From Tubulanus polymorphus (lineage: Eukaryota; Nemertea; Palaeonemertea; Tubulaniformes; Tubulanidae): 64,000 nt of DNA. Shown here one piece after another: positions 48 to 61,048 of this stretch (the stretch's first letter is position 1; each line of letters starts with the position of its first letter). Where the stretch lies: assembly GCF_964204645.1 (NCBI RefSeq), contig NC_134025.1:27744001-27808000 (forward strand), read 5' to 3'. The notes under the pieces are model-generated. The model was not told the DNA's origin. It did no database searches and worked only from the letters and a program-made list of their open reading frames with translations. Position numbers and translations under genes: made by a program.

Positions 48-679
48 CTACCGGACATCTGCGAAAGGATGATAGCGCGATGAAAACGTTTTTGTCGGGA
101 TCGGTCTCCAGATATTTGGTCGTTCGTTGACGGACGAAAGTTCCCATAATGACTGACTGGATGGCGCGCGTCTGGGCACTGCCCCTGGAAAACCTTTTAC
201 ATGTTCGATCGGTAATAAGTTCGCATAATTCCACAAATATCCATACGGTAATGTCGGTTCTAGCTGTAGTTTTTGATTCGAGGGTAATCCTGTCGTAACT
301 ATTTGTTCCATCGGCGCTGTTTGAGGCCGGGGTGGCTGGACAGCGCTACTGTGATGATGCCCGCTATAGTTTTGACGCAACGGATCGAATAGTTCTTTCC
401 CGTAAAATGTACATTGATTACAGCACGGTAATCCGCACGAAGCTCTAGTCATTGTCTGGCTGTATTTTGGAACGTTTGGTTCCTGCCAAAACGAAGCGGG
501 AAGGTTTCTTAATCTGAGAGGAACGCTTCTCGAATTATCCGAATTTCTGATTTCGGGGCCGACATCTGTTTTTCGCGATGGAGAAGGCGATGAATCGCTA
601 TGAATTTTTGTCGCTTCTCGTTCATTTTTCTGTTCATCTGCAGTTATACTTGGCGGCGTCGCCATCGCGGAATGAAACA
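48..679 (-). CDS. TEAD-binding Omega-loop protein, FAM181-like (last coding exon, gene 5' end not found)
   Basis: The open frame ends at a TAG at 48-50. An acceptor (TTGACTTTTTAG, read on the minus strand) places the exon start at 679, and the first Met after it is at 665, giving 205 residues. The frame stays open through the acceptor, so an upstream coding exon is possible. Residues 48-63 read VPLRLRNLPASFWQEP. This closely matches the Omega-loop with which YAP/TAZ/Yorkie and vertebrate FAM181A/B dock on TEAD factors (consensus around LRxLPxSF[FW]). The Trp after SF and the following Glu-Pro resemble my recollection of FAM181 more than YAP. No WW domain is present, which argues against a YAP/Yorkie orthologue. 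The rest is low-complexity, rich in Pro, Ser and Gln, with a Cys cluster (CGLPCCNQC) just after the motif and a WRPIPTK-containing C-terminus. Inferred role: nuclear TEAD cofactor or competitor. The motif is a direct observation; the family name is tentative. Confidence 0.6.
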
Positions 680-1272
680 CTAAAAAGTCAACAGGTAAAA
701 CGTACAACCACTTTGAGATAAGGTAGTTGTAAACTGGCGAGACTGGCGGGCTTGTATTCCTCCAGGAACACGAATTACCCTGTAACGTTCTCACGGATCG
801 ACAGAAAACTAACTTCTTCTACATAAAGAGTTATCTTCAAACTGTTGAAGAACATAAGTAAACCCCGGTGATATACGCTTGGTAGTTACAGTTATATTAC
901 CTTTTCTAACCGATTTCTACAATCACTCGTTAAAAAATTGGGACAGTTCAGTCCACCTGTACAAAAGAAAACATTCACTAGAATCTCAGTAAATTGCAGA
1001 TTTTCTGAACCGAAATATATTCCTCTTGACAAAGAATTTGAAAAGTTCCCAGTAATTTAATTTTCGTAACGAAAAGTCAGATTTTGTAGACAATGTTTTT
1101 TTCATTGCAAACTTTTTTTCCAAAAATAAAATCCGTATGATTATTGTAATCCGAATAAGCGAAGATCTTTAAAATAGTTGAATCGTGTTTTCTCCTGACA
1201 ACCGATGTAGTGATCCCGTGAGCAATAACTAACCACACTGAACTCACAAGAAGATTTTCACTTCCTGCCGTG

Positions 1273-1280: not shown

Positions 1281-4200
1281 CATGATGATGACTTTATTAT
1301 TTGCCTTCGTGAGTTTCCGGAATTTCTCGGGCTTTACGAGGTCAGCTTCTTGGCGTGTTCTTAGTTGCTTTGGAATGTTAGTCTCTTATTAATGTTTATT
1401 CTAATGCAGACGTGGAGCTTGGCGGGAATACAAAACGAAGAACGCGAGCGAATGCAAACAAAATCGCTTACCTTTCGCATATCTGACATTTCACGCGTTC
1501 ATGGAATAAAGTTGTACCTGTTTCGCCCTGTTATTTAAAACAAAGGGCACGCCTTTTACGTGAGAAAAATCGGCGATATAGGAAACTAATAAATCAAGTC
1601 CACGATCTTTTATCCAGTAAAACAGCTTGCCGACAGGTCTAAGCCCTAACTGTCAGCATCAGCAATGATTCACGAAGCGCAAATGGTTCGAGCTATTCTC
1701 AGGTGGTTCTAAAAACTTGGGGGGCCCGGCCAACTGTGCGTGAACGTTCAAAATCGCTAAACTTGAAAGAAATAATCGATGTTTCAGTAAATATCTGTGA
1801 ATTCCGACGTTTAGAGAAAAATGCACCGGAATTCTAACATGACCTATAGGTTGCATATTTGTTCACACGTGAACTCCTATCGAAACATTTTCATGAGTTT
1901 TATTTCAAATTCTCGAACACTTTTATTTTATCGTCTAATTCAAGAATTTTATGATCCGTTACTATGCGGTCATCAAAATGGTTCAAAAGCCAAAGTAAAT
2001 CAACAATGCAAGTACGCACAACCTTTATCATATCGTACCTGAAAAACATGAAATCCAAAACATGAAATCATTTGTTGCATAGTTTTGGAGTTTATAGACA
2101 ACTTTATCGTAAATTTTGCGAATATTTCCGATGGTCGCAAAATAATAATGAATGAAAATTATGTCTCCAGGGCACTACTCAGCTATACGTGTATATGAAA
2201 CAAAGAGAAAGGTCGTGTTTTTAGTTATTTCTATATTTACTCATAAGTTATTTATTAATAGGTAAGGCGTGTTTACATGAAATGGTACCGGGCTAAAGAA
2301 CCTAACGGCCGTAAAGTTTTCTTTGGGTAAACAAAGCTTAACACTAACGAATAATCCAGCGGTTAAAAAACGTTGAATTGTATTTGTTTATGAGGAGCAT
2401 TTGCCAAACGCGTTATATTATGACAGAGCACGAACGTAAAACTGATTTCTGTTGAACATTTCTGAAACTTTGCCGCAAAAGTCTTCGCATATTTTCTTGT
2501 GTTCTCTTGCTGCGATTTTCTTAAGAAACAATAGCGAAAAGTGCATCGGGGTTAATGCAATAAGTAGAGCCTTCTTGGTTTTTATTCACTGAACGCGTTA
2601 TCCCCCAACTTCACTCTCTCTCTCTCCATAATGTTCTTTATTTTGCAGATACGAAGTTCTTATTCTCATCTGAAGTTTCTAGAATTTAAGAAAAACTATT
2701 CAATGTGTAAAAAGGCAGCTACGCTTATGTATTAGATAAAAATATGTACAAATTATGCATTTCTGATACTATACATAGATTTCCTTAAAGAAGCCTGGAC
2801 CGCTGATCGAGCAGCGTATCGATGTCTCCTCGTTGATATTATTTGGCTTATTAATGATGCACTGCCGGAGAATAAACGCCGATTTTTGGTATGCGGAAAA
2901 TCTCATTGGTTTGGGAGAATATCAGGTATTATTGAATTAAAACACGACAAGAATTCTATGGTAGATACGTTACGGTGTTGTTAATTAACGAGGACACTTC
3001 TGCAGAAATGTTAGACATGTCGATGGAATTTAGACGGCGTTCAGACGAGAGAGATGTCAGTAAAACCCTGTATTCCGATTAAAGAGCTCTGCAGGATCGG
3101 TTTGTCAGATTTCATAATGCTTCTATACGACTTATGAATATCAGGATTGGTCGATGCCCGATTTGTTATTGGCGTGAGTCATCGTTTTAATGGTAAATGA
3201 TATGATATGAATATGTTTTGAGATTTTCACGGCATCTGTTTCAACCATACTTTATATTTTATCGACGTTATTATCTTCTGTAATTATAGAAAGACGTAGG
3301 TTATTACGTTACCGGCTCATATCTCCGGCATACCGAGGGCATATTTGTTATGTTGATATAGGCCCAAAAATCCGCGCGAAATGTCAAGCTGTAGCATACC
3401 GCGAAATTTTCTGATAAACCGACAAAATAAAATAAGATAAAACATTACGATAGTGATGATAAATGATTACTACTATATCAATGACGTCTATGAGATATTG
3501 CCGAAAACATTTGATCTATCTGTATACGAGACTGTCCTACTACAATCCAGATTTTGTGAGCGTTCAACTTCAGAAGTTCAACCCGAGATTCTTCGATTGG
3601 CATTGTGAAAATAAATGAAATAGTGCCGACATATATACTCATTAACCTTTGATAAATAAACTAGTTGAAACCTGACCTTTCTGGAATCTACATTACTACG
3701 TATTTAACAACGTAGGCCTACTTAATTACAATTATAAGAATTATCATTGTTGGAATATCTAGCATTTCATTGAAAAGACAAAATCTAAGGGTATGAAATC
3801 TATTAAAATACTACATTCGCTTTGAAAGTATGAAATCATTTCTGTTGATTTAACTTATTTTTCAGCGGGATGGTTTATTGAGTCACGCCGGGAAGATGGC
3901 CGCAGTAGTGTCGAAAACGTGAATTTCAACGTAATTTTGAAACGTGCCCTTCACGCCAGTTACCGTGTTTGCAAACGCCGATTTGATGCCAGGTTGATCT
4001 GCTGGCAAATTTTTCCTCATTTTACACGACTGAAGTTAGTTGCATCGGATTGTAAAGCACTTGTTTACTTGTGTATCACGCCGGGTTTCAACTAATCGCC
4101 CGGCTTGCTCTAGAACCCAATCCAATCGCGGTTTTGCCTGAAATTAGGTACGATCGTTAAAATACGGTTTCAATTGGTTATTAACGAAACTTCAAAGCCA

Positions 4201-34300: not shown

Positions 34301-37300
34301 AAAAAGGAGCGCAACATAAATGCATCTTATTGATAAGGGTTAGGATATGATATGATATAAGATTGACGTCACGCTTATCCATTGGATGAAAAATAGAGCT
34401 TATTATCGAAATCTAACAAAAATTAAAATCATAGAGTGAGGTGACGATGTTTTGCGATGGAAGAAGTGAAAAGACGCAGCACATGAGTCAATTCAGTGCG
34501 TCTGAGAGTTATCTTAACTAATTTGTCACTAGTATTGTCGCCATGAGAGAATGTGGCATCTTTGCCCATCAGGCCTATTAGCCTAATCTGTCAGATTGGA
34601 TGGGATTTGTACGCATTACGATGATTACCCCAACGTAAGGTTAATCCAATTACACTAGTAAGGTGGAACTAGCCGACTGTTTGCTACTGGGTAATTACCC
34701 CTCCTACAATGATGGATGCATCATCCAATGCGGCCAAAAGGTACGAGTTTGATTAAATGGGTGCCAACCTTGATTAAAACTTGTTGAGAGTATTTTTTCA
34801 CTGCACTGGTCACAATTGTTACCGAGATAAACTCTCTATTCTCTGTAAATGAGTAGAAATCATTGTCAGATCTTCACTGGATTAGGGTCACACGCACAAT
34901 TTTTTCATTCACATCCTCTGTTTTTATAAAGGAAGACCAGGTCCTTAATCTTTTCAGTTGTGGATTCTTCATTAAGAATATACACCATGGTTGCATCATT
35001 TCGAGGACCCCACAACTAATTTCCTTTGAAATGTCACATCAGTGTCTGTGGAATTGTTTTCAGTTTTTGAATCTTGAACGTTACGTTTAGACACCAGTTT
35101 CCAAACTTGAATTCATATTCAGTGAAACTCGTTCCTGTCTATAATCAAATGTCCTGAATCACAGAATTAAACAAGAAAATACAAAATTTAGCCGTCAAAC
35201 AAATCATTACTTAAAACGGCAGATGAAATGTTAAGACTTTTTAAATCGTCATTTTCATTTCTTTTTTGTTCAGATCTCAACAGCAGATTAATAACTATGT
35301 TTAACTGTGTTTCAATCAGTTTGTCGTTATACGGCGAGTCTATTTCGGAATCTAATCCGCAGATAGAAAAAGATTGAATTGTGACATCAAAGTCGATGGG
35401 TAACTTTGAGAAAAAACTCTGATGATGATTTAGGATGATTTAGGAAGATACAGCCTTGATTTTCATTTACAATCTGTGTTGTTCATTTGATGCCTACATT
35501 TTGATTCTAGATGTTTTCAGATTCTTAACTAATTTAATACAGTATTTACGCTCCTTACAGCATCCTGGAGCTGCGGAAAGAAAAATCACGAGATGCAGCG
35601 CGGTCACGGCGTGGCAAAGAAAATTACGAATTCTATGAACTCGCTAAGATGTTACCATTACCTGGTGCTATCACTAGTCAACTGGACAAAGCGTCTATAA
35701 TCAGACTGACAATAAGTTACTTGAAATTGAGAGATTTTTCCAGTCATGGTGATCCTCCATGGAGTCGAGATGGTCCTCCGCCTAACAAATCAGTTAAAGG
35801 TATGTATATTTCAATTGTACTATCACCGTGAATTTCTCATTTACGGAATATTTACTTTTTCATAATGGACATCTAAAGCTGTGATGACAATTTCTGACAT
35901 TCACTGTTTTGGACTGTCTTCAGTTTGTCACACAAAGCTGGTTATCATCTCCCCGACAGAGCGAGAAAACTTGACTTGTTTCCTTGAAACGGGAGATTTT
36001 CTGTCTTCTTTCTGGCTTCGTTGATCTTCTTGGCTTACACTAGGCGATTATTCCTGATAATTGAAAAATGGACCACATGTCTAAAGCAGGACTGGTCAGT
36101 AAGGAATTAGACTCTGTTAACTAGTGGATTGTAGCGGTGTTAGCATTCTTACCATGTCCCAATCCGCTATCATGTCTGCCTGACATACGGAAAAATCCAT
36201 TATAACAAAGTTGACTAATCTCATGTATTATTCCGAACCATTCCTTCTCTTCGGTCAGCTTCATCGACTGTTGGCGTCTTTAATTCATGTTGGTACCAAT
36301 ACTCACTTTATTTCATCGCTTTAAACAACAAACAAAAGAAAACTATACATTTTCCTGTGCAGCGAGAAGTTCACTTAAAAAAAGGGAATTCAAACTATCA
36401 TTTATGCAACGTCATCAACTGTCTAACTATATCGAACTTACAGACTATCTGTGCATGTTTTTTCTAAATCTGTGCGCTGTTTTGTATATTCTAGGAGGGC
36501 CACCTCGGCGCCGGTCTATGACCGCAGTAGCGATGGAAATCTTTGAAGCCAGTCAAGGGACGCATATACTTCAGGTAAATGAATAAAATATCAAAACGTT
36601 CACAGACGCTGACTGAATGTCTGAATTTTGAATGAGGTACTTAGGATGACACATCAGACTGATAGGAATTTCATTGTTAGAGTGAGACTTTTTTGAAATC
36701 GGTACGGTTTGATTAGTTTTTGAATGATATATGATCCAATGATCATTACTTACTTCACGGATGAACTGAGTTTTTTCTATAAAAGGAAAATCCAAATAAT
36801 ATCTCGTGGTAGAACAGGAAATTTTATGGTTTTTCTTGGCAAGTGAAACATCAAGAACATGGGCAATTGCGTAAAATAAATGGTGCAATCTATAACCATT
36901 AACCATTAAAACCTCTAAGTCGAAATCCTTGACTAATCTTTCCTAATTCGGTTATCTCTTATTTTGATTGAACTTTCATTACATTTCTATGGTACTTGTC
37001 AATTATTTCACTGTAGTCGACAAATATTGTCATCAATCTTTCGGAAATGTCTTTGATATTATTAATCTTTTGAACAATGCAATATATACCGGTAGATAAC
37101 TTAACGTGAAATATTCAAGTGCTTCTGATCATTTTCACTATTTCAATGGACAAGAACAGATCAATAAGAAATGATGATGAATCTGTTGATGATTATATTC
37201 TGGCAATATGTTGGATGGTAAAAGATTTGACATTATTTGGCAATTTATATCTTTGATATCTTGCTTAAACCGTTTTAGTATCATATGGCTATTTATGTAG

Positions 37301-40300
37301 AACGTTAGTTAGATGTATAATTGCATGTGTCATGTGAACTGTTAAATTTCCCAAGTTGACGGGAATTCATGTCACACATCTCAGATTGGTTGCTTCAAGC
37401 ATTTGCCTCAACTGTCTCAAGAGAGGGACCTTTTAATGAAACCCCTAATGAAATTTGTCTTGTCACTTTGCAAGTCTATTAATGGGTTGAATCTGTTCAA
37501 GTTTACTTGAGGCATTTCTTTCTTTAGAGATAATCTTTCTTGTTGAGTTTATTTATTGAGATATCATTTAGATCGGAGCTACCTTTGACCAATGATATTT
37601 AATCATTTGTTTAGTCTTACGAATCTTTGCGTTGAAATGAAAATGTTTTATCAGTTTACAACAGCGTAGAGAGATGATGCTCGAATTTGTAGATTCGGTT
37701 TTTAACGATTTTCAGTTTGATTCATTATGTTATCTATCGTGTTCCTGTGAAGTGTGTAATTAGCATCAACCCACAACCCACTCTTGATTAAACCTATAAC
37801 GTCTGTGAACGTGAATGATGATGGCAGAGTAATAATTGCCTTTTTTCCGTCAGTCCCGCCTCAGCCCACTCATGGTAAAAACACCTTTACTGACTATAAT
37901 CTGTCACACGATGATTTATCGTGTCCAGCCTCTTCCACCCACATATATTCAATGTGATAATATTACCTCAATTTCATCCATAGCAAAGTATAAATCAATT
38001 CAACTTTTTCTGAACAAAGTATACTTTTACCGAATTTGGTTACTGATCTGATATACGTTTCATTATCATCTATGGGGTTGCATATCTATTTTCAGCCTTA
38101 ATATGTCCGACATATTTTTTTTTTGTCAGGAGAGGGTCTATGAATTACTCTACCATCATCGATTTGTGAAGCTATTTCCCTCAGCTCACAATTAATTCAT
38201 TAGTTACCATGACCTGTGCAAATGGCTGCTTGTCTATTGTTAGTTTTGCACCATCAGTCAAGTGCTGCGAATGGTAACCGGATATGTCGAGCTCCTCGTG
38301 TGACGTTCTACCTTTTATCACCTTCAGATACAGTCAATTAATGTCATTTCTTACCTTCCTTCTCTCTTGAACATAATATAGTGATAACAATCAACCATTA
38401 GATTTTGAGAAAAGCTCTTGGTAACCATTTCGGGATTCAAATATTGAATATTGAAAAAAAAATTAACTGGGCCTTCGTCCAGAATTCGATGTAACCCGTA
38501 ACTACGGATATGGGTCCAGAATTTCCAAAGTCCAAAATTAACCCATTAATTCAATCGATTCCATATTTTGTCCTTTGCTTCCAACAAAATCCAGTCGGTA
38601 TTTTACCGGTGTTCTGAGCTGGTGTCATTTATGACATCTATCTATCAAATCATTGAAAACCGAGCGACATTTCTCGAGTGATGAGTCGCGACTTTCACTG
38701 TTATTGTACCATTATAGAAGTTGGCATATCATCTTCATGATGCTCCGTTGCTTCCAGTCTCCATCACTGCCGTATCATTGAAGCATCACTGTAACCGATG
38801 TGGAAAACTCTGTCATCACCTGATGTGTTAAACATTGTCAGATGATTCCGGTCCAATGACCTCCCTTCAGCTTTTTCTCAGCTAATATCTTCACAATCTT
38901 CTTTATAAATAAATTATTCATTAGGTGTCCTATAAGAATCTTTCTTTTTTTTTTACTGGTGAGTGATTAGTATCTGTCCATTCCTGATTTCGATTGCTCG
39001 ATTCACTTAGGTACTCCGTTAAAACTTTCGTATCTTTATTTCTTTGAATAAACTCGGCATTTTTACGTCAAATTTCTGTGTAGTTAGCGTGAATTCCGCG
39101 TTTCCTCAGAGAAATGATCACATCTTACAACTCAATTGATGTCGATAGAGGAATCATTTAGAGCCTGGAAAATAGAAATAATATTTGCTGCCTTTTTGGT
39201 GAACAGCTTGTCACAAATTTGTCATTGATCAATCGAAGCCGGATTCTAGTCCCTCTGAAATTTGGCGAACAAATGTAATCAAACAAGCTCTTCTATTGCG
39301 GTGATAATGAAAGCAAGAAAATGAAAGCGCCAAGTACGTGACAGGTGTGCTAATATATGATTTCTGATTGGTCGATTCTACTGAACATGTTCGATTCATT
39401 CACGTCTAGCAGAAACTCGACTTTTAGCCAAGTACGATATTCCTTGCAATTGATTTATTCAATCTACTGAAGGCATATGGTATATGTATTGTGTACATCA
39501 TTAAAAAACTTCTCATTTAGAGATTTATTTACTGAAAACCTCCTCAGTGAGTGTATAACTATTCCAAGAGAACTTGAGCGCCAGAAGCTAGTAGCTTTAG
39601 AATAAAATCTTTCAAATGATAGTTACTGATATCGAATCTATTGGTTAACAGTTACATTTCTCTCAAGACCTTTAAGCACTGAGTAATATATGAGATTGTG
39701 GGCTCATCGATGCAGAGACTATTTCTGTCTGGATAGATTCCATCAGTGATCATTGAAGCGTGAGCGCTCTGAATCTCTGCGCGAGATTTACTGGATTTCA
39801 TTTAAACCCTCCTTCAAGAAGGGAATGTATTCAAGAAGTATCATAAACGTTCATGAGCTGTCTTAATTTAAGATGATGCCGTTTTTCGACAAGGGAAGTC
39901 ATTGCCATTTAGTTAATGTTGCATAAAGAATGGGATTCCCTGACGGGTCGTTGGATGAGGCAGTGATTTCACATCAACCATTCCAGCTGGTCAATCGCTC
40001 CACATTTCCATGCACCCGCACTGCATACATAATTACTAACATAATCTACTCTGCTTTTCACGGCCCATGGATGACAAGATCCTTGATGGATTATTGATGT
40101 TTGTCGTCTTTTCGCACATTCTTGCTTGACTTTTTCAGGATCATTTTTTTTCGATTTTGAAGTGTCTTTAGTCTCTTTTGAAAATTGATAAACACGGTAT
40201 TCATTTGTGAAAGTTTTATTCACTTGCCCATCAGCAGACTGACTGCGAGTTCACATTTACACCTTTATTCCCGTTGTATTGATCACTCTTGCGCTAATGA

Positions 40301-43300
40301 GTAATGAATTTCTGTCTTTTGTTTTTCCTGGTCATTTATCACGAACTACGTCAAGAGTCATTGAGTCTTGTTTGTAGCACCTCGGTTAGCTACATCTCAC
40401 TCTGCATTATTTGCTACTCTTGGCTGATTAATCGACTCTTTATGTGGAGTTTATTACCCACAAATCCGTCCATAGTTTGGCACGGTCATAAACTGGTGAC
40501 AGAATGGTTCTAATCTCTTACTTTACCAGGGTCGATTTAAGCCCCCATCTTAACTTGTTCTCTACTGATAATCAGACTCTTCCTGTGAGACTGTAAAACA
40601 TTATTTTATCTGTCCTCGAAGAGAAATAGTCGTCATATCATAAGATATACGTTGACCGTTTGAAGTATAACATTATATCGAAAAGCGTGAAATCCCCTTA
40701 GCTACGTTTCGGGGATTTGTCCTCGAATTGCTAGACAGATAGCCTTGGTGAAGCAATGTTTGTCTTGTGTAATTGTATGGATTCTTGGATTGGACTGATA
40801 TCACTGTTAATTAAGAAAGAAGTGACTAGTCCTAATCTCTAGGTTTATTGCTGGATTAAGAGTCTGATCAGCTTTTCTACCAGGTACAACACACACACCT
40901 CAAACCTTTTAATGGCAAAGTGATAGGTGCACAGTGATCAATCTCCCTTAGTACATGTTTATCTATGTTTCAGACGTACAATAGTAATGTTACATATCTT
41001 CAGAAATGTATAAAACTGTATCTGATGATTAAAATGTTTTCATTATTTCAGTCTTTGGATGGATTTGCGTTTGCTTTATCAAACGACGGTCGATTTCTCT
41101 ACATATCGGAAACGGTTTCCATCTACCTTGGACTTTCTCAGGTAAAGTGTTTCTACTTCCAGATTTTGTAGACAAATCTGTTTAATTTCCACAAAAAAAA
41201 ACAATATTAAAACTCGATGAAAGACTCTGTCCGCGTTGAAACGATGATACAGAATCAAATCTCACAGTCCGAAAAGCTTCAATGAACTGATAATTCTTTT
41301 GACGTTTCGAATATACGTATAAATTGAAACGTTATCAGGCTATAGTCGAAACGTCGAATAAGATATTAATTCAAACGTCATCGAAGATAACCAGGTGGGA
41401 TCTAGGGTCTGATTCAGGGAGGGTTGTACGCCCAAAATAGGACGTATCATATAATTAAAAGGGCACCCTGAAAAAAATTTCATTTTTGGAAATACACAGA
41501 ACAAACTTATGAATTCAAACATTTTAGTCAGGCAACTTCACATTTTTAGGGGGTGTGCACTCCCTACACCCTGCCTGTGGATCCATCCCCGATGACTATG
41601 AGGATAAACTGGAAACGTCACATAAATTACTAGCTGAATGAAACTTTTCGGACTCGTTTTTCTTTTGTATTGTTGGATCTAATAAAACAATGTTTTTATA
41701 AAGAGTTCAAATTCCACTACATGGTACATTGAATTAAGTTTGCGGTTATGATATTTGCTCTCGCGAATTAGACAGATGCGAATCCTTAACACGCACCAAT
41801 AAAGATGATATTTCATCTCGGTGACAAAAGGCCATCATTCTCTGCTCCATTATTTCTCGTTATATCGTAGTTATGTCTGAACGGCTGAAGTGTAGAATTA
41901 TGGAAATCTGATGGCTTTATCAATTATATCTGACACTGTAGCAATCATAAAACCGTGTAGTGTTAACATTGCCACTAAATTGCTGATATGTCAGATCCGA
42001 GATGAAATCATTCTTGGCCTTCAATTTAACGACAAGATCAGTAGTAATTCAAGATAATCCAGTGCAAACTAAAAGTTTCCATGTATACTACGAAGGTTCA
42101 TAGTGCAATGAGGCGAATTGAATTGATATTTGGCACAAGATGTTTTATTTGATGAATTGATTTTATTCCATAATCAATCAAACAATCATGCACGATATAC
42201 TTCGGTGTAACACAGACTTTGTCTCTGAACGCTAAAATGGGCTCAATACATCCAGATATGAGCAGGCATTCTCTGAGGAGAATGATTCGCAACTGTAATC
42301 AAACAAATCCCATCAGTATGAAACGAATCAATTAGATTGTTATTGCTGTAGCGTTAAATGGCTATGATTGAACTATCTAGATAAGTGACAGACTAATTTT
42401 TACAGCCAAATTGCTTTAATTCAGACCATAAATATGTTGAAAGGCTTTTAGTCGATGACTTTGGACACATTTAGAAGTAAACATTTTCTGTTTCTGTAAC
42501 TGATTTCAGAACGAGTGATACTCTAGAAATATCATCCAAAGTCTGGTAAATCGGCTTCGGCATATTGAAGTATTTTATACTACCTTTTTTCATATTAGAA
42601 AAAGTCATTTTCTGCTATGTGATAATTCAATTGTTTTGTTCAAAAGTCAATTACTATAACTCGTAATTCGATTATTTAAATGAATTGTAGTTTATTGATT
42701 ATGCTGATATTCTCGAAAAGTGCGAAGTCTTGCTTTCAGGCATTATTAATCCTAAACAAGCTTAAAGACCTCGTGAATATCAATCAGAAATGAAATTATA
42801 GCTTTCTAAGGTAGAAACACAGTTCCCTATAATTATAATTTAGCGGATGAGGTGCTGCTATTGTTTCCGCTGTCGATCAGCGGGTTACTCATCCAGAGGA
42901 AAGTCGACTGCCTTGAACAAATTGACCCATTCTATTTATTGTGAGAGTTTTTCCACGGGCAATCATTAGAAATCCGCGTGAATAACAGCTTTACAGTCCA
43001 CAAGACGTTCTCGTTGCGACTTCGCCAGCGTGGATGGGGAGGTCATCCAGTGATACTGAGTAATTGCATTTGCACATTTAATTGAAATTAAGCAACAGAG
43101 TGACAGTTCGTTGCATGGATTATCAGTAAATCAGTTAGATATACTTGTCAGATCAAATAGAATGTAGCCTTTGTTAAAGCAAACTGTATTTCAAAGAGCA
43201 AGTTGTATTTCAAAGAGCATCATCTTATCTAGAAGGGTTTGGGAAGAGAAGACGAGAATGGTTGATGGAAATCATTTGAAGTATTTTCTTATCTTACAGG

Positions 43301-45949
43301 TGGAGATGGCTGGTAGTTGTGTTTTTGATTACGTACATCAGCAAGATCATCCCGAATTAGCTGAACAGTTAGGTTTGTGTCTTCCGCACAGTACATCGAT
43401 GCCATCACCAAGTTCTGGATCAGAAGCAGGCGCTGCGACTACGTCATCTGCTACGAAGACAGATAGCCCTTCAGTATCTGAAAGGGGTATATACATAAAT
43501 GCAATTTCCAATTTCAAACAGATTGAAATTTCTTAACTAAATCTTTAATCTTTTCTCTCGTTTCGTTCGCAGTTTCTGGATTGATGCAGCATAGTAAAAC
43601 GCGAGGAGTTGAACGGGCTTTCCATATACGAATGAAATCTACATTAACCAAACGAGGAGTTCATGTTAAAACATCGGGATATAGGGTAAAACATTGTCAA
43701 CATCATGCGTCCTTCAACATCATCTGAATTCATTATTCGGTTTTATCATTCTAGAATTGAATTGTGTTTTTCAGGTAGTACATATAATTGGTCATATGCG
43801 TTCACAATTCTCATTTTCTCTGACACGCAAGCATCCGCCGCCTATATTAGGATTTGTAGCTGTAGCCCTCGCCCTACCACCACCAACAATAAATGAACTT
43901 AAAATCGACAATGACATGTTTGTAATGAGGGTCAGTCCAGATTTCAAAGTTGTTTTCTGTGAACCAAGGTGAGTTGGTCCTATCACTGTTTTCTAAACAT
44001 TTCCGTGGAAACCCAATCACAATGATGTTGTTTTGACCGCGGAGAGTCGTATCTATTTGTTAGAATTGCTGATCTGATGGACATGACTCCAGATGACCTC
44101 GTAAACAAAAATCTCTACAGTTTTATCCATGCCGAAGATTTAAACAAAATGAGGAAGGCCCATTCTGATTGTAAGTGCAGTTTGAAATATTTCGTCATTT
44201 AATCTAAAGAATATCAATCAACGAACTATACTTTCATTTCAGTATTAACAAAAGGCCAGGTCCTGTCCGACTATTTTCGCATAATGAATGTGCATGGTGG
44301 ACAGGTATGGTTACAAATGTGTGCTACAATCATCTTCAACAATAAGAACTCCGATGAAGAGAGTATTATCTGTATCATTTATGTTCTCAGGTAGGTTTCT
44401 GAAAAGTCATAAATGATTCATGCATATTCATGCATTATATTCATTATGATTAATGATCCTTTTCAGTGGGATTGAGTATGCGAACTGCGTAATGAGTAGT
44501 AGTCAACTAGCAGCGGTGAAAAACAAAAATTCTGACAACACAGATAATTCAGATAGTGAAGCAGCTGCTGAACAAAGTAATTAGAATAGTATAACATTTC
44601 AAATAAATCGAAGGTGAAATATATAGTCATATTCATATCCATGTATTAACTCCCGCATCTCTTATTCAGGTGAATGCCGAGCGAAGCAATTGGATCACTC
44701 ATGTAATAATCCATCATCAACTACAGGAACTAGTGAAAGAACATCAACTAGTCACCATAACCTCGATCATTCACATCTCAGTAAACATATGAACAATAAT
44801 GAACCGATTGGAAACTTGGAAACGTTTCGATATCCTCAAAATGGAGATGGCGACATGGACGTGGCGAGAGATTTCTTGTTGGATGATAGCACATCTGGTT
44901 GTTACGCCGATGACGATATCAGTGATAAACTGAAGGATATTAAAAACTCTCGAAGGAAAATGGGTCGACCTCGTAAAAGAAAACGTGACCCATCCCCTGA
45001 TAATCATCCTCAGGTGACGGATATCGATGCTTCATCGCATACATCGTTATCACCTCTCCACAATCCAGTTACCCTCACCCCTTCTCAGTCGAATGTACCT
45101 ACTAGCCCCACCCCTAATCCCGGAACAGCTCCAGCTCAGACTTTACGATCGCCATTACCAGAGGATTTGTCGGTTAAGACTGTAAGTGCTGCGTTAGGAT
45201 CACCAGACCATCATAATCAGGATATACCACAAAGACCAGGCAGTGGTACTGTTTCAAATGTACGCGATCTGGAGGAAGCAATGAGTAAACATCTACCCCA
45301 AAATGATGAGCCAAACTATTTAGGTAATAATTACACATCAGGTCAATTTGCTAAACAAAGATCTACCATACAATGGATCGGCTCACAGCAACAAACTAAC
45401 AATGATACATTACCCGCATCAACACTGTTGCGCCATCTTTACGCGAATAGGGAATCTGTGATTCGTACTAACGTTTACAACCAGTCCCGTCCTCAGTATT
45501 ACGGTGATATTCAGAGTACTGTTTTGGGAACTAACGCGGACAGTTCGCAATTTAGCGTGTCGCAGTTAACTAGCGGTACTTCAAAAAGCCAGTCGCCTAA
45601 TGTCTATCACAATAGCGCATATACGAGTTCAATAGCTGATGCTTATGGTATGGTTACACCAGTAGCTGATAAATACACAGCATTTTCTGAAAGTAGTTAC
45701 ACAGATAGTAACTCTAATCAACTGAAGTTGTATAATAACGATGGAGTGACTCAAACGATGCCGATACGACCTCAAGTTTACCCATTATCAACCCCTTCGC
45801 ATGCTCATACAGCATACGATCGCGGTGCGGCCAGTCAATTTGCTAAGAGCTCTTATTATCATAGTTCAAGCAATCCTTATTCCGCCTTTACTCATCCCAG
45901 TTCAGGATTGACCGAGGATCATTATCGACAAGCCAAGTCAGCGTGGTGA
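31243..45949 (+). CDS. trh: Trachealess / NPAS1-NPAS3 orthologue, bHLH-PAS transcription factor (complete, 11 coding exons)
   Basis: Coding exons: 31243-31304, 35561-35799, 36495-36574, 41052-41141, 43300-43486, 43573-43685, 43775-43968, 44064-44170, 44243-44390, 44467-44576, 44670-45949. All junctions are GT-AG and all phases fit, giving 869 residues; a start at 31252 would remove three. Domains: bHLH about 26-80, PAS-A about 128-285, PAS-B about 305-407, then a long disordered Ser/Thr/Asn/Gln-rich C-terminal half. The order and sequence of these blocks match Drosophila Trachealess and vertebrate NPAS1/3. The family acts in the nucleus as a heterodimer with ARNT/Tango, binding ACGTG-core sites; it controls tubular organ (fly) or neural (vertebrate) development. 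The C-terminal motifs at 641-709 resemble the fly protein, so trachealess is the better name. Large 5' introns and an empty upstream flank suggest complex regulation. The first exon is the least certain part. Confidence 0.95.
31305..35560 (+). other. trh intron 1 (4.3 kb)
   Basis: Noncoding. It has a polypyrimidine-rich beginning, a (TA)n run near 31758-31772 and several homeodomain-type ATTA clusters. The latter include a 12-bp palindrome GGGTAATTACCC at about 34688-34699, inside a relatively ordered, less biased stretch (34540-34760) that could be a conserved enhancer. No exon is seen. Confidence 0.6.
35561..35799 (+). CDS. trh: trh exon 2, bHLH domain
   Basis: The acceptor CTCCTTACAG precedes C-ATC-CTG-GAG. 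The exon encodes the whole bHLH: basic region [18 protein letters not shown], helix 1 with [13 protein letters not shown], and the loop and helix 2 ending [10 protein letters not shown] linker rich in Pro and Gly follows. The basic region matches the trh/SIM/NPAS class of bHLH-PAS proteins rather than AhR or CLOCK. The donor is GTATGT at 35800. Confidence 0.95.
36495..36574 (+). CDS. trh: trh exon 3, linker between bHLH and PAS-A
   Basis: A phase-1 acceptor (TTCTAG) and a phase-0 donor (GTAAAT) bound 80 bases. They encode a short basic stretch (PPRRRS) and then [15 protein letters not shown], equivalent to the LAIEVFEAHLGSHILQ segment of NPAS3. Confidence 0.93.
36575..41051 (+). other. trh intron 3 (4.5 kb)
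   Basis: No exon is supported between the linker and PAS-A exons. There is a TACGTG (the Trh:Tango core site) at 39335-39340, a frequency expected by chance. The open frames here are short and unrelated to known families. Confidence 0.55.
41052..41141 (+). CDS. trh: trh exon 4, start of PAS-A
   Basis: Thirty whole codons (phase 0 to phase 0) encode [20 protein letters not shown] and [10 protein letters not shown], the signature opening of the NPAS/trh PAS-A domain. The acceptor is TTATTTCAG and the donor GTAAAG. Confidence 0.95.
41301..41355. repeat. 10-bp inverted repeat GACGTTTCGA...TCGAAACGTC
   Basis: Perfect 10-base arms are separated by 35 bases, with a third related GAAACGTTAT between them. 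It abuts the hAT-like remnant and may be part of older mobile DNA. Confidence 0.5.
41392..41590 (-). mobile_element. hAT-like nonautonomous element remnant (copy A)
   Basis: Read on the minus strand, this shares with the element at 61389-61623 a 5' segment (CCCCCTAAAAATGT), a central TATTTCCAAAAAT and a 3' segment ending in CCTCCCTGAATCAGACCC then TAGATCC. Its ends are decayed versions of CAGGGGCGGATCC and its complement. Internal deletions are obvious relative to the other copy. It lies inside trh intron 4. Confidence 0.65.
43300..44576 (+). CDS. trh: trh exons 5-10, rest of PAS-A and all of PAS-B
   Basis: Six closely spaced exons with introns of 72-95 bases. Exon 5 carries [18 protein letters not shown] and a Ser/Ala-rich insertion. 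Exon 6 carries [20 protein letters not shown], one of the most conserved blocks in the subfamily. Exon 7 carries [17 protein letters not shown] and the beginning of PAS-B. Exons 8 and 9 carry [20 protein letters not shown] and WLQMCATII. Exon 10 carries IEYANCV and an acidic Ser/Asp/Asn stretch. The exon 10 donor (AAA|GTAATT) is weak, but joining it to 44670 keeps the frame, while reading through meets a stop at once (TAG, 44582-44584). Confidence 0.93.
44670..45949 (+). CDS. trh: trh exon 11, C-terminal regulatory region
   Basis: A single long exon encodes residues 444-869 and ends SAW-TGA. Residues 541-549 are MGRPRKRKR, which combines an AT-hook-like GRP core with a nuclear localisation-type basic run. 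Three blocks stand out in otherwise disordered sequence: [13 protein letters not shown] (641-653), STIQWIG (675-681) and [19 protein letters not shown] (691-709). They match blocks I recall from fly Trachealess in the same order and are not in the NPAS3 tail as I recall it. The remainder is rich in Ser, Tyr, Asn and Gln, typical of activation regions. Confidence 0.93.
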
Positions 45950-47682: not shown

Positions 47683-47687
47683 TTATT
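47682..47687 (-). terminator. Poly(A) signal AATAAA overlapping the MRPL44 stop codon
   Basis: On the minus strand the C-terminal codons read ACT-CAA-TAA followed by AG. The stop TAA (47685-47683) therefore lies inside AATAAA. Use of this signal would leave a 3' UTR of only about 15-25 bases. An ATTAAA about 240 bases further on is an alternative. Confidence 0.5.
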
Positions 47688-48699
47688 GAGTAATTTGAGA
47701 TCTAGATGAATTGCGGTCGACGGGTAGAGGGGGTCGATGATCTTCTATTTGGTATAAACGTTTAAGGGCGTCTTTAGCCGCCTCTTCTTCGGCGATTAAA
47801 ACAGTTTCTCCCGGGGATCGACCGATCAGCTTCCGATCGGAATAAATCCCGACGTGATATACGGCGAGAACCGTATTACAACCCGACTGCCACAGAAGTC
47901 GAGGTTCCGGAAGACCGCGTCCTTGTTGTTCTAATATTTCGCTTAATTCACCCATAGCGTTTTTAAAATCGACGATTGTACCGATGTCTTTGCCGATCAG
48001 TTCGGGAATAACGAAATCTTTCAAAACTAATTCTAACTCATTTGAACCCGATTCGACGAGAATCGCGCCGAGAAACGCTTTAAACGTATTCGATAAAGTG
48101 ATCATTTCCGGTGAACTTTCTCCGCTTAGGATTAAATCCGTCATTCCGAGATTCTTGCCTATATGAGCGAGAGACTCGTCGGCCCAAAGTACGTCGTGTA
48201 TTTTGGCGATATATTCTTCCTTCAGCGAAGGGTAGATACTGCTCAGAAGCATCTTCACGCGATCGCTTCCATTCTTTTCCCCTTCGACGATCAACAATTC
48301 GTTACTTTCGAGTTCTAAATCCGAGTCGTCTACACCCAACTCTTTTCTCTTATTCGACTCTTTCTCGACGTACGACTTGTTGACGAATAAACGCTTCAGG
48401 ATTTTGTCGCTTAGGTCGACACCTAATCGTTTTCCGAACGCGAAAACTTCGGCGTCGTAATTCCAATTCGCGAATTCGGATCTGTGTCGCCACGGTTCAG
48501 GTCCCACTTCTAGTCGTCGTTTGTATAATTCCTTCACTAATTTTGATTCGTGGTGTTTGTAACCGCGAGCGTGAACTACACAAACAGGATTCAAACCGAC
48601 GACTGACTTTCTGACGAGGGTTTGTCTCAATGAAGAAATGAACGGTCCTCCTCCTCCTCTTCGGATGAGAGGCGAAACCATCGTGATTATTTTTGACAT
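47683..48699 (-). CDS. MRPL44: Mitochondrial large ribosomal subunit protein mL44
   Basis: A single-exon coding region of 338 codons; human MRPL44 is about 332. Residues 1-45 are basic and nearly free of acidic residues, as expected of a mitochondrial presequence. Residues about 80-235 form an RNase III-like fold, in which the usual D..EA..GA catalytic signature reads NTFKAFLGA (204-212), so the catalytic acids are gone, as in other mL44 proteins. Residues about 245-317 are a double-stranded RNA-binding domain (NAMGELSEILEQQG and EEEAAKDALKRLY). Role known for the family: structural component of the mitochondrial 39S subunit. An acceptor (CTGTTTCTAG) sits immediately before the ATG, so the coding region probably follows a 5'-UTR intron. 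The gene is convergent with trh and divergent from calponin-like gene 1. Confidence 0.95.
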   Translation of the reverse strand: MSKIITMVSPLIRRGGGGPFISSLRQTLVRKSVVGLNPVCVVHARGYKHHESKLVKELYKRRLEVGPEPWRHRSEFANWNYDAEVFAFGKRLGVDLSDKILKRLFVNKSYVEKESNKRKELGVDDSDLELESNELLIVEGEKNGSDRVKMLLSSIYPSLKEEYIAKIHDVLWADESLAHIGKNLGMTDLILSGESSPEMITLSNTFKAFLGAILVESGSNELELVLKDFVIPELIGKDIGTIVDFKNAMGELSEILEQQGRGLPEPRLLWQSGCNTVLAVYHVGIYSDRKLIGRSPGETVLIAEEEAAKDALKRLYQIEDHRPPLPVDRNSSRSQITQ

Positions 48700-49531: not shown

Positions 49532-52397
49532 ATGCCTCCTCCCCCAAAGGTAAGATGTTCATCATTCGTATTTACGAGTGCAAAGTACTTTTTTCAAAAC
49601 TAATCACCATCTTATTTCAAAACTAATCAAAATTTCTTTCGCAAGACTTGAAACAACTTTCGACTCCTAGTTGTGTTACGAAAAATTGGCCGTACTAATG
49701 ATTTCAAAATTCGTATTTTGTATTATGCCTGTGAACCTAAACTGAATATTTTTAGATAGCGTGATTCATTTTATTTGGCGTTCAAAGTTCATGAATGTGT
49801 AAGCATTTAATTTTAGAAATTCTAAGCGCAAAAAATATCCTCTCTTCAGCTCTCATCGCGAACGATGTTGAATAACACGAATGACAGGTGCAGAAGTATC
49901 CGTTCTATCATATCAAATGAATGAAGGATTGAGTTATCTGAGGAAGAATTTAGACTGTTCCGATATTAATGCCTCGCGGTTAGCACCGGCCTTCATTTTA
50001 ATAGAAAATGTACAGAATACAAATAACTATATATTTCATAATTCTAAAAAAGCTTTCAACTGAAGCAAAAACCAAACTGAACGCAGTGACGAGAATACAC
50101 ATATGCCTGCTTCTTGAAAAGCAACGCTTTTTGGTACCAGGATGCCAGTCAGTACAGGGCGCCATATAAACTATAAATAGTCAGCATTTGTAGGAAGAGA
50201 AAAACACCTAAGAGTTTCCGTTAAACTACTGAACGAATGAACGAGAAACTTTCTTACTTTCCCTAATTATATCGAGAATGTAACGGGACGAAACACTACG
50301 TTAGATATGTCAGAGGTTATCCTCCTATAAGAGTATCTCTCGTTGGAACCGCTGGAAAATTTGGTATTACTCGGATCGCTTTTGCATTCGTTCTATCCCT
50401 AGATAAACATTAACCACGAATTAATATTAATATTTGTAATCATTGCAATAATCAAGCAAAACCGTTCTCTGCTGAAATGATTGCCACCAAGCTAAACAGA
50501 CGCAGCTGTATTCCGTTAACTACTCGTCGGTTCTTGCCGCATGCTGGGTGAAAGTTTTCTTAACTTCATTACGTGTGGTAGCCTGTTTAGATGTTATTGT
50601 TATATCATATTGGATTTATAAAAAAAGAATGTTATCTTACATAAAATAATCACGAAGAATACACACGGTCGTTACTTGGTGAAGTTCGGTTTTCCGAGTT
50701 TGGTGTTTGCTAACCTGAGTGGTGGCGGCTGGGGAAGGGTCTTTATTCAGCACGTAGGAACTACGTGTTTCCTCAATGTTACTTAGTCCCCATTTGAATA
50801 TCTAAATATATGATATACACAAAATCTAGCCCAGCCTTTTCGAACGGAGATATTTAGAATTTCGAGAATGTAAGAAAACGGTAGATCTTAACCGCAATTT
50901 GAATAAAGATGTTCAGGGAACAGTGGGAAGGCGAGATATTTATATCCTCGGATTTAGATATATCGGAGAATTTCTCGAGATTATTTACGGTATAGATCAA
51001 CAACTGTCGATATACGCCACCGCACTTACTACCTATAGCTTTACCAGTGATAGTTTGATAAACTTCTCCAGTTGCGATGAATCACAGCAATGCAGAAAAC
51101 TGCACACAGTTCCCAATCAAGAATTCTTTACCTTAATAAGATTCTGTTGGGGTTTAAGATATATATCCTTTAATTGTAATCATATATAAAAAGCAATTAA
51201 TTGAGACTAGTGGCAGACCCAAAATATGATGATTTAACAGGTAGAATCTGTTAATCTGACGTTCTGAAAAGATTAATTCTATTCATCTTCGGAGATTCAT
51301 AATTTCATGTAAAAAATTTTGAATAAAACTACGATGATAGATAAAAGTTATCAATCCAAAACGTCAGTTAAACAGATTTGTGGGTCTTCTATTTAAGTAA
51401 TTTATCAACTATTCTGAAACTTCTCTTTTGCAGAGAGACCCTGAAGCTGAAAAGCAAGCTATGGAGTGGATCGAAGCAATTTTGGGGAAAAAGTTCGATG
51501 GACCTTTCGATGATGTTTTGAAGAATGGGGTGGTTCTTTGTCAGTTAGTATATATTATCATTATCTATACATCTATCGATGGTTTGAACTATCAATCATA
51601 AATACATGCTGAAATTAACCTCAAAACGCTAGAGACTTCGCATGATAAAAATAAATCATTTATTAGTTTCTCTTACGTCGATGAATAGTGTTTACGTAGA
51701 TACGAACACGAATAACCTCTCCTAGCTTTACATACAAAACATCACTCCTATGAACAGAGTTTATCTTGTAAAACATCGCTGCGCAAAACTTGCCTTCATC
51801 TTCAGCAAGTAGACCCCTTCAATACCAGTTATATAAAAAAACCATGATAAGGGTATACTCGATATTACGGAAGCATATACAGATAATTCACTTTCTCAAA
51901 TTGACCGATATTTTCTTTTTAGATTAATTAATAAACTTGCTCCTGGAAGTGTGAAGAAAATTGCTGAAAAGGGAATGGATTTCAAACTGATGGAGAACAT
52001 ATCAGCCTTCCAAGCTGCCGTGAAAAAATACGGTGTCGAAGACGAGACGTTTCAAACTGTAGATCTGTGGCAAAAGAAAAATATTTCAGCCGTGACGAAA
52101 TGTATCTTTGCCCTCGGAAGAGTGGTAAGTCAAAAAGCCACGAAGACCCCACTAAACGTCCATCGCTATAACCAACGTCTAGATTTACAGAAAGTTGGCT
52201 TTTCTCTTTAGGCCCAGAAGCATCCTGAATTCAACGGCCCGATACTTGGTCCAAAAGAATCTGACGCAAATAAACGGGAATTCACCGAAGAACAATTGAG
52301 AGCTGGTGAGGGACATGTCGGTCTGCAGGCAGGCTTTGCGGGAGGTGCGAGTCAAGCGGGACAAAGTTTCGGTAAACAGCGAATGATCCAGGACTGA
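49532..52397 (+). CDS. Calponin-like protein 1 (myophilin/transgelin family), 4 exons
   Basis: Exons 49532-49549, 51434-51543, 51923-52124 and 52212-52397 join in phase to 171 residues. The N-terminus is very short (MPPPPK). A single calponin-homology domain spans about 9-112, with MEWIEAILG, FDDVLKNGVVLCQLINKLAPG, FQAAVKKYGV, FQTVDLWQKKNISAV and CIFALGR. One calponin-family repeat lies at about 144-168 (GHVGLQAGFAGGASQAGQSF, followed by GKQ). This is the layout of transgelin/myophilin rather than true calponin, which has three repeats and is longer; transgelins are usually about 190-200 residues. Known role: actin-filament binding and cross-linking, prominent in muscle. The sequence does not tell muscle from non-muscle expression. 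Confidence 0.93.
49550..51433 (+). other. Intron 1 of calponin-like gene 1 (1.9 kb)
   Basis: No exon is seen. It contains a small inverted repeat CACGTAG-GAA-CTACGTG at 50751-50767. In mesodermal genes of this family first introns often hold enhancers, but nothing here proves that. Confidence 0.5.
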
Positions 52398-58496: not shown

Positions 58497-61048
58497 ATGA
58501 GTTCCATGCGAGCACCGAAATCGGGATTAAGCCGTGATACGCATCAAAAGGTAAGGCAAATAAAAAGCTGCGGATGTCGTAATACATTTCTAAATAATTC
58601 TTCAAAATCACATTACGCGTTTTCATTTCAGATAATGAATAAATATGATCAAGATGATGGTTCATTGTGTCTGGAATGGCTGAGAGAAATTATTCTGGAG
58701 AATTTGTACAACGGAGAATACTTCGAAGAAATAGACCTGAATGGAGAGGCAGAAAGCTTCTATAGACAGCTCAAAGATGGATATGTGTTAGCTAGGTATA
58801 TTGCATAAAATCATTTTGTTTTTTTTTCAAATTCATTCGCCAATTTATTGCAAAATTCACAAAATCGTAAAAAGTCATGATCTCATGATCTGACTCAGTT
58901 GGTCTATAGACCTATGTGTAGGCCCTGTAGGAATGTATAGATGTTTCAAAGCGCGGGGAAATGAATGAATTTTATCAAAATAAAAAATGCTCTTTGTACG
59001 AGGTCGCATCAATGACGACAATTTGGGAGTTTTGCATTAAGTAGTCCATTTATCCACTGAATTGGACTCGACATAAGACCAGAGAAGATATTCAATGAAT
59101 TAACGGTTAAAAGGCAAAAATAGGCAGACACCCAGTGTCTTCGCAGGGGCGGACCCAGGAAATTTGGAAGGCTGAGTAAAGAAGAAAAGAAAAGGCATCT
59201 TTCGGATGAAAGCTGCGATTGCATAGGCAACTATCTGGGTACCACCTGCGTTATTAGATATTTTTGAAGAAAACGTCCGAACTGTTGCAATTTCTGAAAA
59301 CTTTGAAAAAATACATCCACGCAATTTCATGAGGATGAATTGTCAAATTTGCAGGTCATTACTATCTTTGTCTTGATGAAAAGGGCAACCTAAATTAGGA
59401 AGGCAGGGATCCTAAATCCGCCCCTGTTTCGTTGCATGTATCCCCAAAGCAAGGAAAGGATGTCACTTATAGCACGTTGACACCATTAAAATCATCATTA
59501 TGTCACAGCGGGTCTGGTGTAACAGCAATCACGCCGTTTCGCCTTCTAAATTACCCGTAATACAACGATTATCTGAAATTACTGAAAATTAGGCTACTTG
59601 ATATATTTATAACGAATTATCATTGCAGATTATTTGATTTAGTGCGTGGCTTTTCTCTCGTTACAGCTCAAACTTCAACCATATTTTACCTCCTCTCAGC
59701 CAAATATAAATCAGGCGACACGATTTGTTTGGTGAATGATAATGAATAAATTTCTATCCGCCAAGGTTATAGTGACATCACGCACATTGTACAGAATTAC
59801 TGAGACAAACGCTAAACCTTGGAGTAATCATTTCCAATGATTACTCCAAGGCTGAACCATCCTGCGCCGTCATCGCGTGTCTAACATAGGATTCGATTCC
59901 CGGATCCAAATGGGAATTAAATGAGCTTTACTCATTAATTCTCGTTGATTAATATTGAATGTAGTTCATGCTTGTATACACGGTATTTACAGTCCTGTTT
60001 TGATCGCGGTTCTTTTAATTTTCAGATTAGCAAAAGCGCTCTTACCAAACAGCGTTCCCGACTCAAAGTTACGGCAACGCCCAACATTGCATTTCAAACA
60101 AATGGAACTTATAGAATATTTCTTAATCGCAGCACGAGATTTCGGCGTCAGTGACCAGGAAGTATTTCAAACTTGTGATTTATACGAACGACAAAATCTC
60201 CATCAAGTGGTTGTGTGTTTAATGGCTTTAGCGAGAAAGGTTAGCTTTGTGTTTACTACTAATTATAGGCTTTTGTTCATTCACACTGAAATGTTTCCGG
60301 TATTTTGGTGCGTTTGAGTGTAGTTCGTTGCATTCCTTGTCTCAGATTCGGCACGGTCTGGGTAGGGGCCAATCTTGATCACAGCTTTATAGGCTGACAC
60401 GGGAAAGGGGAAGTTCATCTACAAGCTAGACCCAGCTATAGAATTCTGAAACGTTTTGACTTAGTAGTTAGAAGTTAAATTGATTTAAACCACGACTCGC
60501 ATGTCCACTGGCCCTGTTCCTTTTTTCTTAAATTAGGGATTGACAGATTTCGTTGATAATTTTTTACTCGACGCACCTGCCCGCAGGGTTAGTTCATCGA
60601 AATCCCCCGTTAGGGAACGGTTCGGTGCTGTGACCATGTTAGATGAGAATGGCGTTCGATAATGGGTTGACTTTGCACTCCCTGCCATTCGTGATGCTGA
60701 ATGGCGTTTGACAAAACAAAACATACTCTGATCACTTGGTATACATTCGTGGGAAACGGGTATCATATCTGGACTTTCTTACATACGTACATCTTCAGCC
60801 TTCATTGAGATGATTATTCTAATAAAGTTTGAATTCAAATCTTGTTAAATTTTAATGCATTTTATTTCCAGTGTAAGGATCGGGGAATGACGGGATTTGG
60901 ACCCAGAGAATCGCAAGCTAATGTACGCCGATTCTCGCAAGAACAGCTAAACGCAGGAAAGGGTTTCGTCAGTTTGCAGATGGGTTCGAACGCCGGAGCA
61001 AATCAGTCTGGCCTCTCTTTTGGTAAAACTCGTGGTATCGTTGATTAG
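58497..61048 (+). CDS. Calponin-like protein 2 (transgelin family), 4 exons
   Basis: Exons 58497-58550, 58632-58795, 60026-60239 and 60872-61048 join in phase to 202 residues, the usual transgelin length. An 18-residue basic N-terminal exon precedes one calponin-homology domain (about 28-143; CLEWLREIILEN, QLKDGYVLARLAKALLP, FKQMELIEYFLIAARDFGV, FQTCDLYERQNLHQVV). A single calponin-family repeat lies at about 175-200 (GFVSLQMGSNAGANQSGLSF then GKTRG). Known role: actin binding. Exon phases (0, 2, 0) and positions match calponin-like gene 1 exactly, though the proteins have diverged strongly. An earlier acceptor-like CATTGCAG near 59628 does not lead into a usable frame; the exon at 60026 does. 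Confidence 0.9.
59144..59426. mobile_element. hAT-like nonautonomous element (copy C)
   Basis: Ends CAGGGGCGGACCCAGG and CCTAAATCCGCCCCTG form a near-perfect terminal inverted repeat around 283 bases. The flanking octamers TGTCTTCG and TTTCGTTG agree at 5 of 8 positions, compatible with a worn 8-bp target duplication. The interior shows no transposase. Confidence 0.65.
59817..59851. repeat. Perfect 14-bp inverted repeat with 7-base loop
   Basis: CCTTGGAGTAATCA, loop TTTCCAA, then TGATTACTCCAAGG. The arms are perfectly complementary. CCAAGGTT about 60 bases upstream (59761) is the complement of the outer part of the left arm. It lies in intron 2 of calponin-like gene 2. Confidence 0.8.
60240..60871 (+). 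other. Intron 3 of calponin-like gene 2
   Basis: 632 bases without an exon. One minus-strand open frame of 77 codons (60533-60766) in a less A+T-rich patch has no recognisable motif and is probably chance. Confidence 0.5.

Follow-up and report, generated by a model that had tools for sequence, protein, structure and literature searches.

A predicted loop-only TEAD cofactor in the nemertean Tubulanus polymorphus, encoded apart from YAP, FAM181, PERCC1 and Vestigial

The output of the Hippo pathway is TEAD, over which YAP and Vestigial-type cofactors are usually said to compete. A 64,000-nucleotide stretch of Tubulanus polymorphus DNA (contig NC_134025.1, positions 27,744,001 to 27,808,000; hereafter the window) encodes a TEAD-binding Omega loop in a small protein, which raises the question of whether this protein is one of the known loop-bearing cofactors or an additional one, and how it might act on TEAD. 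Our analysis favors an additional gene. It probably encodes a nuclear cofactor of 205 residues, largely disordered, which grips TEAD by the Omega loop alone (interface 3), like human FAM181A, and which is distinct from the YAP, FAM181, PERCC1 and Vestigial of the same genome.

The Omega-loop gene in the window

The loop, VPLRLRNLPASFWQEP, which the initial annotation had placed in an invertebrate protein, is encoded exactly at 524..477 of the minus strand, within the 205-aa open reading frame (Table 1). It gives a full-length match to Pfam PF15238, TEADIR3 (Omega loop, TEAD interacting region 3), with 34.4 bits and an E value of 2.3e-8, passing the Pfam gathering cut-off of 26 bits. In a six-frame search of the 268-Mb genome it was the best TEADIR3 match (E 1.9e-6), and it is therefore not a chance resemblance. 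Among PDB sequences, the best match is to the FAM181A peptide from the co-crystal with TEAD (6l9f), and human YAP1 comes next.

The frame is open from stop to stop over 818..48 of the minus strand, with the ATG at 665 and the stop at 48 inside it, and the start context reads GCGATGG. The span first given for the gene, 48-679, was thus nearly right, the actual coding part being 665..48 on the minus strand. With a codon-composition score trained on six coding stretches from the same genome, the ORF reached 0.139, against a maximum of 0.031 among 2000 intergenic pieces. When the minus strand of window positions 1-36000 was scanned for maximum segments, 668..87 came out as the top coding-like segment, with a score of 32.5 and a runner-up of 11. 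This codon composition supports a real gene. The genome-wide E value, a codon score above that of every intergenic piece and the intact 205-codon frame make it highly improbable that the ORF arose by chance or is a pseudogene in decay.

The ORF could also be the last exon of a larger gene, with a missing helix or N-terminal domain in upstream exons. Splice acceptors do occur 5' of the ATG, and one of them (the AG just before GGTAATTCG, near 780) leaves the frame open. However, the in-frame stretch ahead of ATG 665 looks non-coding (codon score -0.14), the start codon lies in a good context, no minus-strand coding-like segment rises over background up to 36 kb, and the window holds no N-terminal match to FAM181, PERCC1 or YAP, so that we regard a larger gene as quite improbable. 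The FAM181 N-terminal exon that had been expected upstream of the loop exon was found neither by similarity in the window nor by coding score on the minus strand of positions 1-36000.

Outside the loop, Pfam detected nothing in the ORF and NCBIfam gave no match. Two features noted earlier were confirmed here: the Pfam search found no WW domain, and the Cys cluster, C-x3-CC-x2-C, lies at 437..411, where it may possibly bind metal. The motif ELFDPL was considered as a swapped interface-2 helix and rejected, as it sits after the loop and is missing the leading Leu of LxxLF. An AlphaFold single-sequence model had a mean pLDDT of 46, a low-confidence result that carries no information on docking. 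The protein is probably disordered outside the loop; this pLDDT is expected for disorder yet is no proof of it.

Table 1. Features of the window gene (window coordinates) and other Omega-loop genes of the genome
Feature	Position	Strand	Details
Loop-protein CDS	48..665	minus	205 aa, one coding exon; ATG 665-663, stop 50-48
Candidate 5' UTR start of coding exon	666..679	minus	after acceptor cttttTAG ending at 680; putative
Candidate non-coding 5' exon end	1472..1500	minus	donor AAG/GTAAGC at 1471; putative, read from the sequence
TEAD-binding Omega loop (interface 3)	477..524	minus	VPLRLRNLPASFWQEP, residues 48-63; Pfam TEADIR3; 6l9f match
Cys cluster (CGLPCCNQC)	411..437	minus	C77-x3-C81-C82-x2-C85, read from translation
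ELFDPL	378..395	minus	resembles interface-2 helix end (LQDLFDP in FAM181, LGELFDF in PERCC1); doubtful
RPIPTK C-terminal motif	90..107	minus	resembles C-terminal part of human FAM181A; weak
YAP (L006)	C9:14260 kb		LEELF helix, loop, start of WW domain
FAM181 (L008)	C5:21553 kb (C5:21553041)		N-terminal LLQFMDIASSSIKLVLDK...RKRVNHRKYIQRQIK domain, LQDLFDP, LPLRGRPLPSSFFTEP; single coding exon
PERCC1 (L007)	C7:14894 kb (C7:14894356)		LxxLF helix ahead of loop, conserved C-terminus (SPDxxDILxxW); single coding exon
Vestigial/VGLL2 (L005)	C1:10759-10763 kb		loop at 10763 kb; TONDU 3 kb upstream, C1:10759643
Unnamed multi-exon gene (L002/L014)	C7:15210-15213 kb	plus	~5727-7867 of C7:15205000-15214900; loop VPMRLRALPQSFWQQPNKPQ; ~four coding exons

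Relation to the other Omega-loop genes

The genome contains six loop genes, namely YAP, Vestigial, FAM181, PERCC1 and two unnamed ones, in the window and on contig 7 (Table 1). The YAP, FAM181, PERCC1 and Vestigial loci were assigned from motif content, by the motifs that characterize the vertebrate proteins. A seventh TEADIR3 match, at C7:1786409, falls in a 24-codon frame with an E value of 6 and was taken as chance. With TEADIR3 scores of about 34 bits each, the window and contig-7 loops outrank the remaining four. PERCC1 and FAM181 lie below the Pfam cut-off for this model, and annotation pipelines may miss both. P, R, P, S and F are invariant between the window loop, the loops of the genome's YAP, FAM181, PERCC1 and Vestigial, and those of human YAP and FAM181A.

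Three of the named families were considered for the window gene and rejected. With YAP, TAZ and Yorkie the window protein shares the VP(M/L)RLRxLPxSF loop for TEAD, but it has no WW domains, no interface 1 and no interface 2, the helix before the loop being absent. YAP occupies a distinct locus on contig 9, in agreement with the earlier proposal that the loop protein is separate from YAP. Vestigial/VGLL2, found elsewhere on contig 1, resembles the window protein in having a loop Trp at the F96 position, but no TONDU was found within the window. PERCC1 shares a single coding exon and a loop with FWQEPN; it differs in its N-terminal region, in the LxxLF helix that precedes its loop and in the conserved C-terminus SPDxxDILxxW, the latter two being absent from the window protein, and it was located on contig 7.

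The assignment of the window gene to FAM181 itself had to be abandoned, the genome's FAM181 orthologue being the contig-5 locus. The FAM181 N-terminal domain (LLxFxxxASSxIKxxLDK...RKxxNHRKYxQxQIK) is absent from the ORF and from the window, and its one copy in the whole genome is on contig 5. With FAM181A and FAM181B (PF15238; 6l9f, 6sen, 6seo) the window protein shares the Omega loop, with the ASFW-EP signature of FAM181A, the absence of WW domains and a predicted binding at interface 3 only. It differs in lacking the N-terminal domain, and the Cys cluster and most of the C-terminus are not common to the two.

Could it then be a diverged FAM181 duplicate in which the N-terminal domain and interface 2 have disappeared while the loop and the C-terminal RPIPTK survive? 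The window and FAM181A loops are 75% identical, the window gene has a single coding exon as does the genome's own FAM181, and RPxxxxPIPTK follows the loop in the same order, with 0.9% of shuffles reaching the local alignment score of the RPIPTK region against what we take to be the human FAM181A C-terminus, to which the similarity is weak. On the other side, the genome's FAM181 has no such C-terminal similarity to FAM181A, the window loop is nearer to that of the contig-7 gene (70% over 20 residues) than to that of the genome's FAM181 (56% over 18), and the genome holds no second FAM181 N-terminal domain. We consider a duplicate unlikely, though credible. That loop similarity raises another reading, in which the window and contig-7 genes form a spiralian Omega-loop family of their own, apart from FAM181. 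The contig-7 loop, VPMRLRALPQSFWQQPNKPQ, is the most like the window loop (14 of 20 positions identical), and both have similarly high TEADIR3 scores. However, the two genes show no similarity outside the loop, their structures differ (about four coding exons against one), and both loops may merely sit near the ancestral form; a common family therefore appears rather unlikely. The contig-7 gene also carries an LxxLF-like motif, LLFKLF, in a later exon, placing the helix after the loop, the opposite of the order in YAP.

Because the FAM181 N-terminal domain, an LxxLF in the usual place, WW domains and TONDU are all absent, we read the window gene as encoding an additional loop-only protein. Judged from these sequence comparisons, it is an additional loop gene, orthologous to none of YAP, FAM181, PERCC1 and Vestigial.

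Predicted action on TEAD

The putative partner is encoded by one TEAD gene (C1:27888-27892 kb), in which both the TEA domain and the YAP-binding domain were found. Aligned to human TEADs, its exons keep V265, D272, K297 and W299 (AVDIRQIYDKF...FFLVKFW) and Y429 (HIYRLVK), and the exon before these ends with E263 (DPLLE); the numbering is that of TEAD4, counted by hand along the aligned sequence. By this alignment, the loop-pocket residues of the genome's single TEAD are intact.

On the side of the loop, alanine at YAP M86, R89, L91, S94 or F95 causes a loss of binding of more than 100-fold each, and F96 caps the Omega loop (PMC10146773). Drosophila Vg has a Trp at the capping F96 position and binds the same TEAD pocket (PMC7566471). 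M86, R89, L91, S94, F95 and F96 correspond in the window protein to L, R, L, S, F and W, so that, as aligned, the mutation-tested YAP residues are all kept or conservatively replaced. We infer from these contact residues a loop-only TEAD binder that would exclude YAP and Vestigial from interface 3. In this model, L50, L55 and F59 would occupy the hydrophobic TEAD pocket, with R53 pairing with Asp272, S58 with Glu263/Tyr429, and W60 capping the loop. Since YAP and Vestigial use that pocket too, binding of the window protein would be expected to shut them out.

A precedent for such docking is FAM181A, which binds TEAD solely at interface 3; neither FAM181A nor FAM181B has the helix (PMC10146773). 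The loop alone may nevertheless need help, because a YAP loop peptide of 15 residues is described as a weak TEAD binder (PMC10146773). The window protein may either compete with YAP or carry its own C-terminal partners, through the Cys cluster and the RPIPTK region, to TEAD target genes. Even FAM181A/B had no demonstrable effect on transcription by TEAD when examined in HEK293FT cells (PMC12672301). TEAD binding, nuclear location, competition and output of the window protein are all put forward as predictions.

The initial annotation had regarded FAM181-like proteins as little described in spiralians, but invertebrate FAM181 and PERCC1 have already been published (PMC9710580). PERCC1 is reported in molluscs and annelids and a FAM181 of Capitella is named (PMC9710580), and FAM181B is among the ciliogenesis hub genes in Urechis (PMC10380512). 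The idea of a FAM181 family in spiralians is thus not new. Our literature search for a further loop family in spiralians found nothing, and a loop-only gene beside all four known ones was not found described there, although uncharacterised database entries may exist. The presence of the loop in a separate gene hints that TEAD receives one more input than has been described. We tentatively raise the possibility that spiralians possess a family of TEAD cofactors, so far undescribed, that rely on the loop alone and stand apart from FAM181, PERCC1, YAP and Vestigial; it would give them at least one additional way onto their single TEAD, independent of YAP or in competition with it. If the two unnamed loop proteins bind, the TEAD pocket, at which interface-3 drugs are also aimed, would be contested by more proteins than described, and loop-only binders like the window protein would reveal what the loop does without a helix.

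Neighboring genes and other loci

The only TEAD gene (C1:27888046-27891608) lies about 143 kb from the loop gene, on the same 32-Mb contig. Random placement would bring the loop gene this near to TEAD about once per thousand, a figure to be read in light of the proximity having been noticed post hoc. Within the window, the loop gene neighbors a bHLH-PAS gene on the plus strand (35538-45949; Pfam bHLH_HIF1A model), NPAS1/3 or Trachealess-like by sequence. The window also contains the mitochondrial ribosomal protein mL44 on the minus strand (47683-48699) and two transgelin-like calponin-homology exons on the plus strand (51837-52208 and 59949-60314).

Elsewhere in the genome, the Hox cluster is intact and ordered at C6:5318237-5634765, comprising, by homeodomain, Post2, Lox2/Lox4-like, Antp, Lox5, Scr, Dfd, Hox3, Hox2 and Hox1. 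Lox5 was recognized by KLNGP after the homeodomain, and two Lox4/Lox2-like genes by IKELN; together with Post2 they support a spiralian origin of the genome. A search of the assembly for COX1 gave no match. ParaHox genes are on contig 5.
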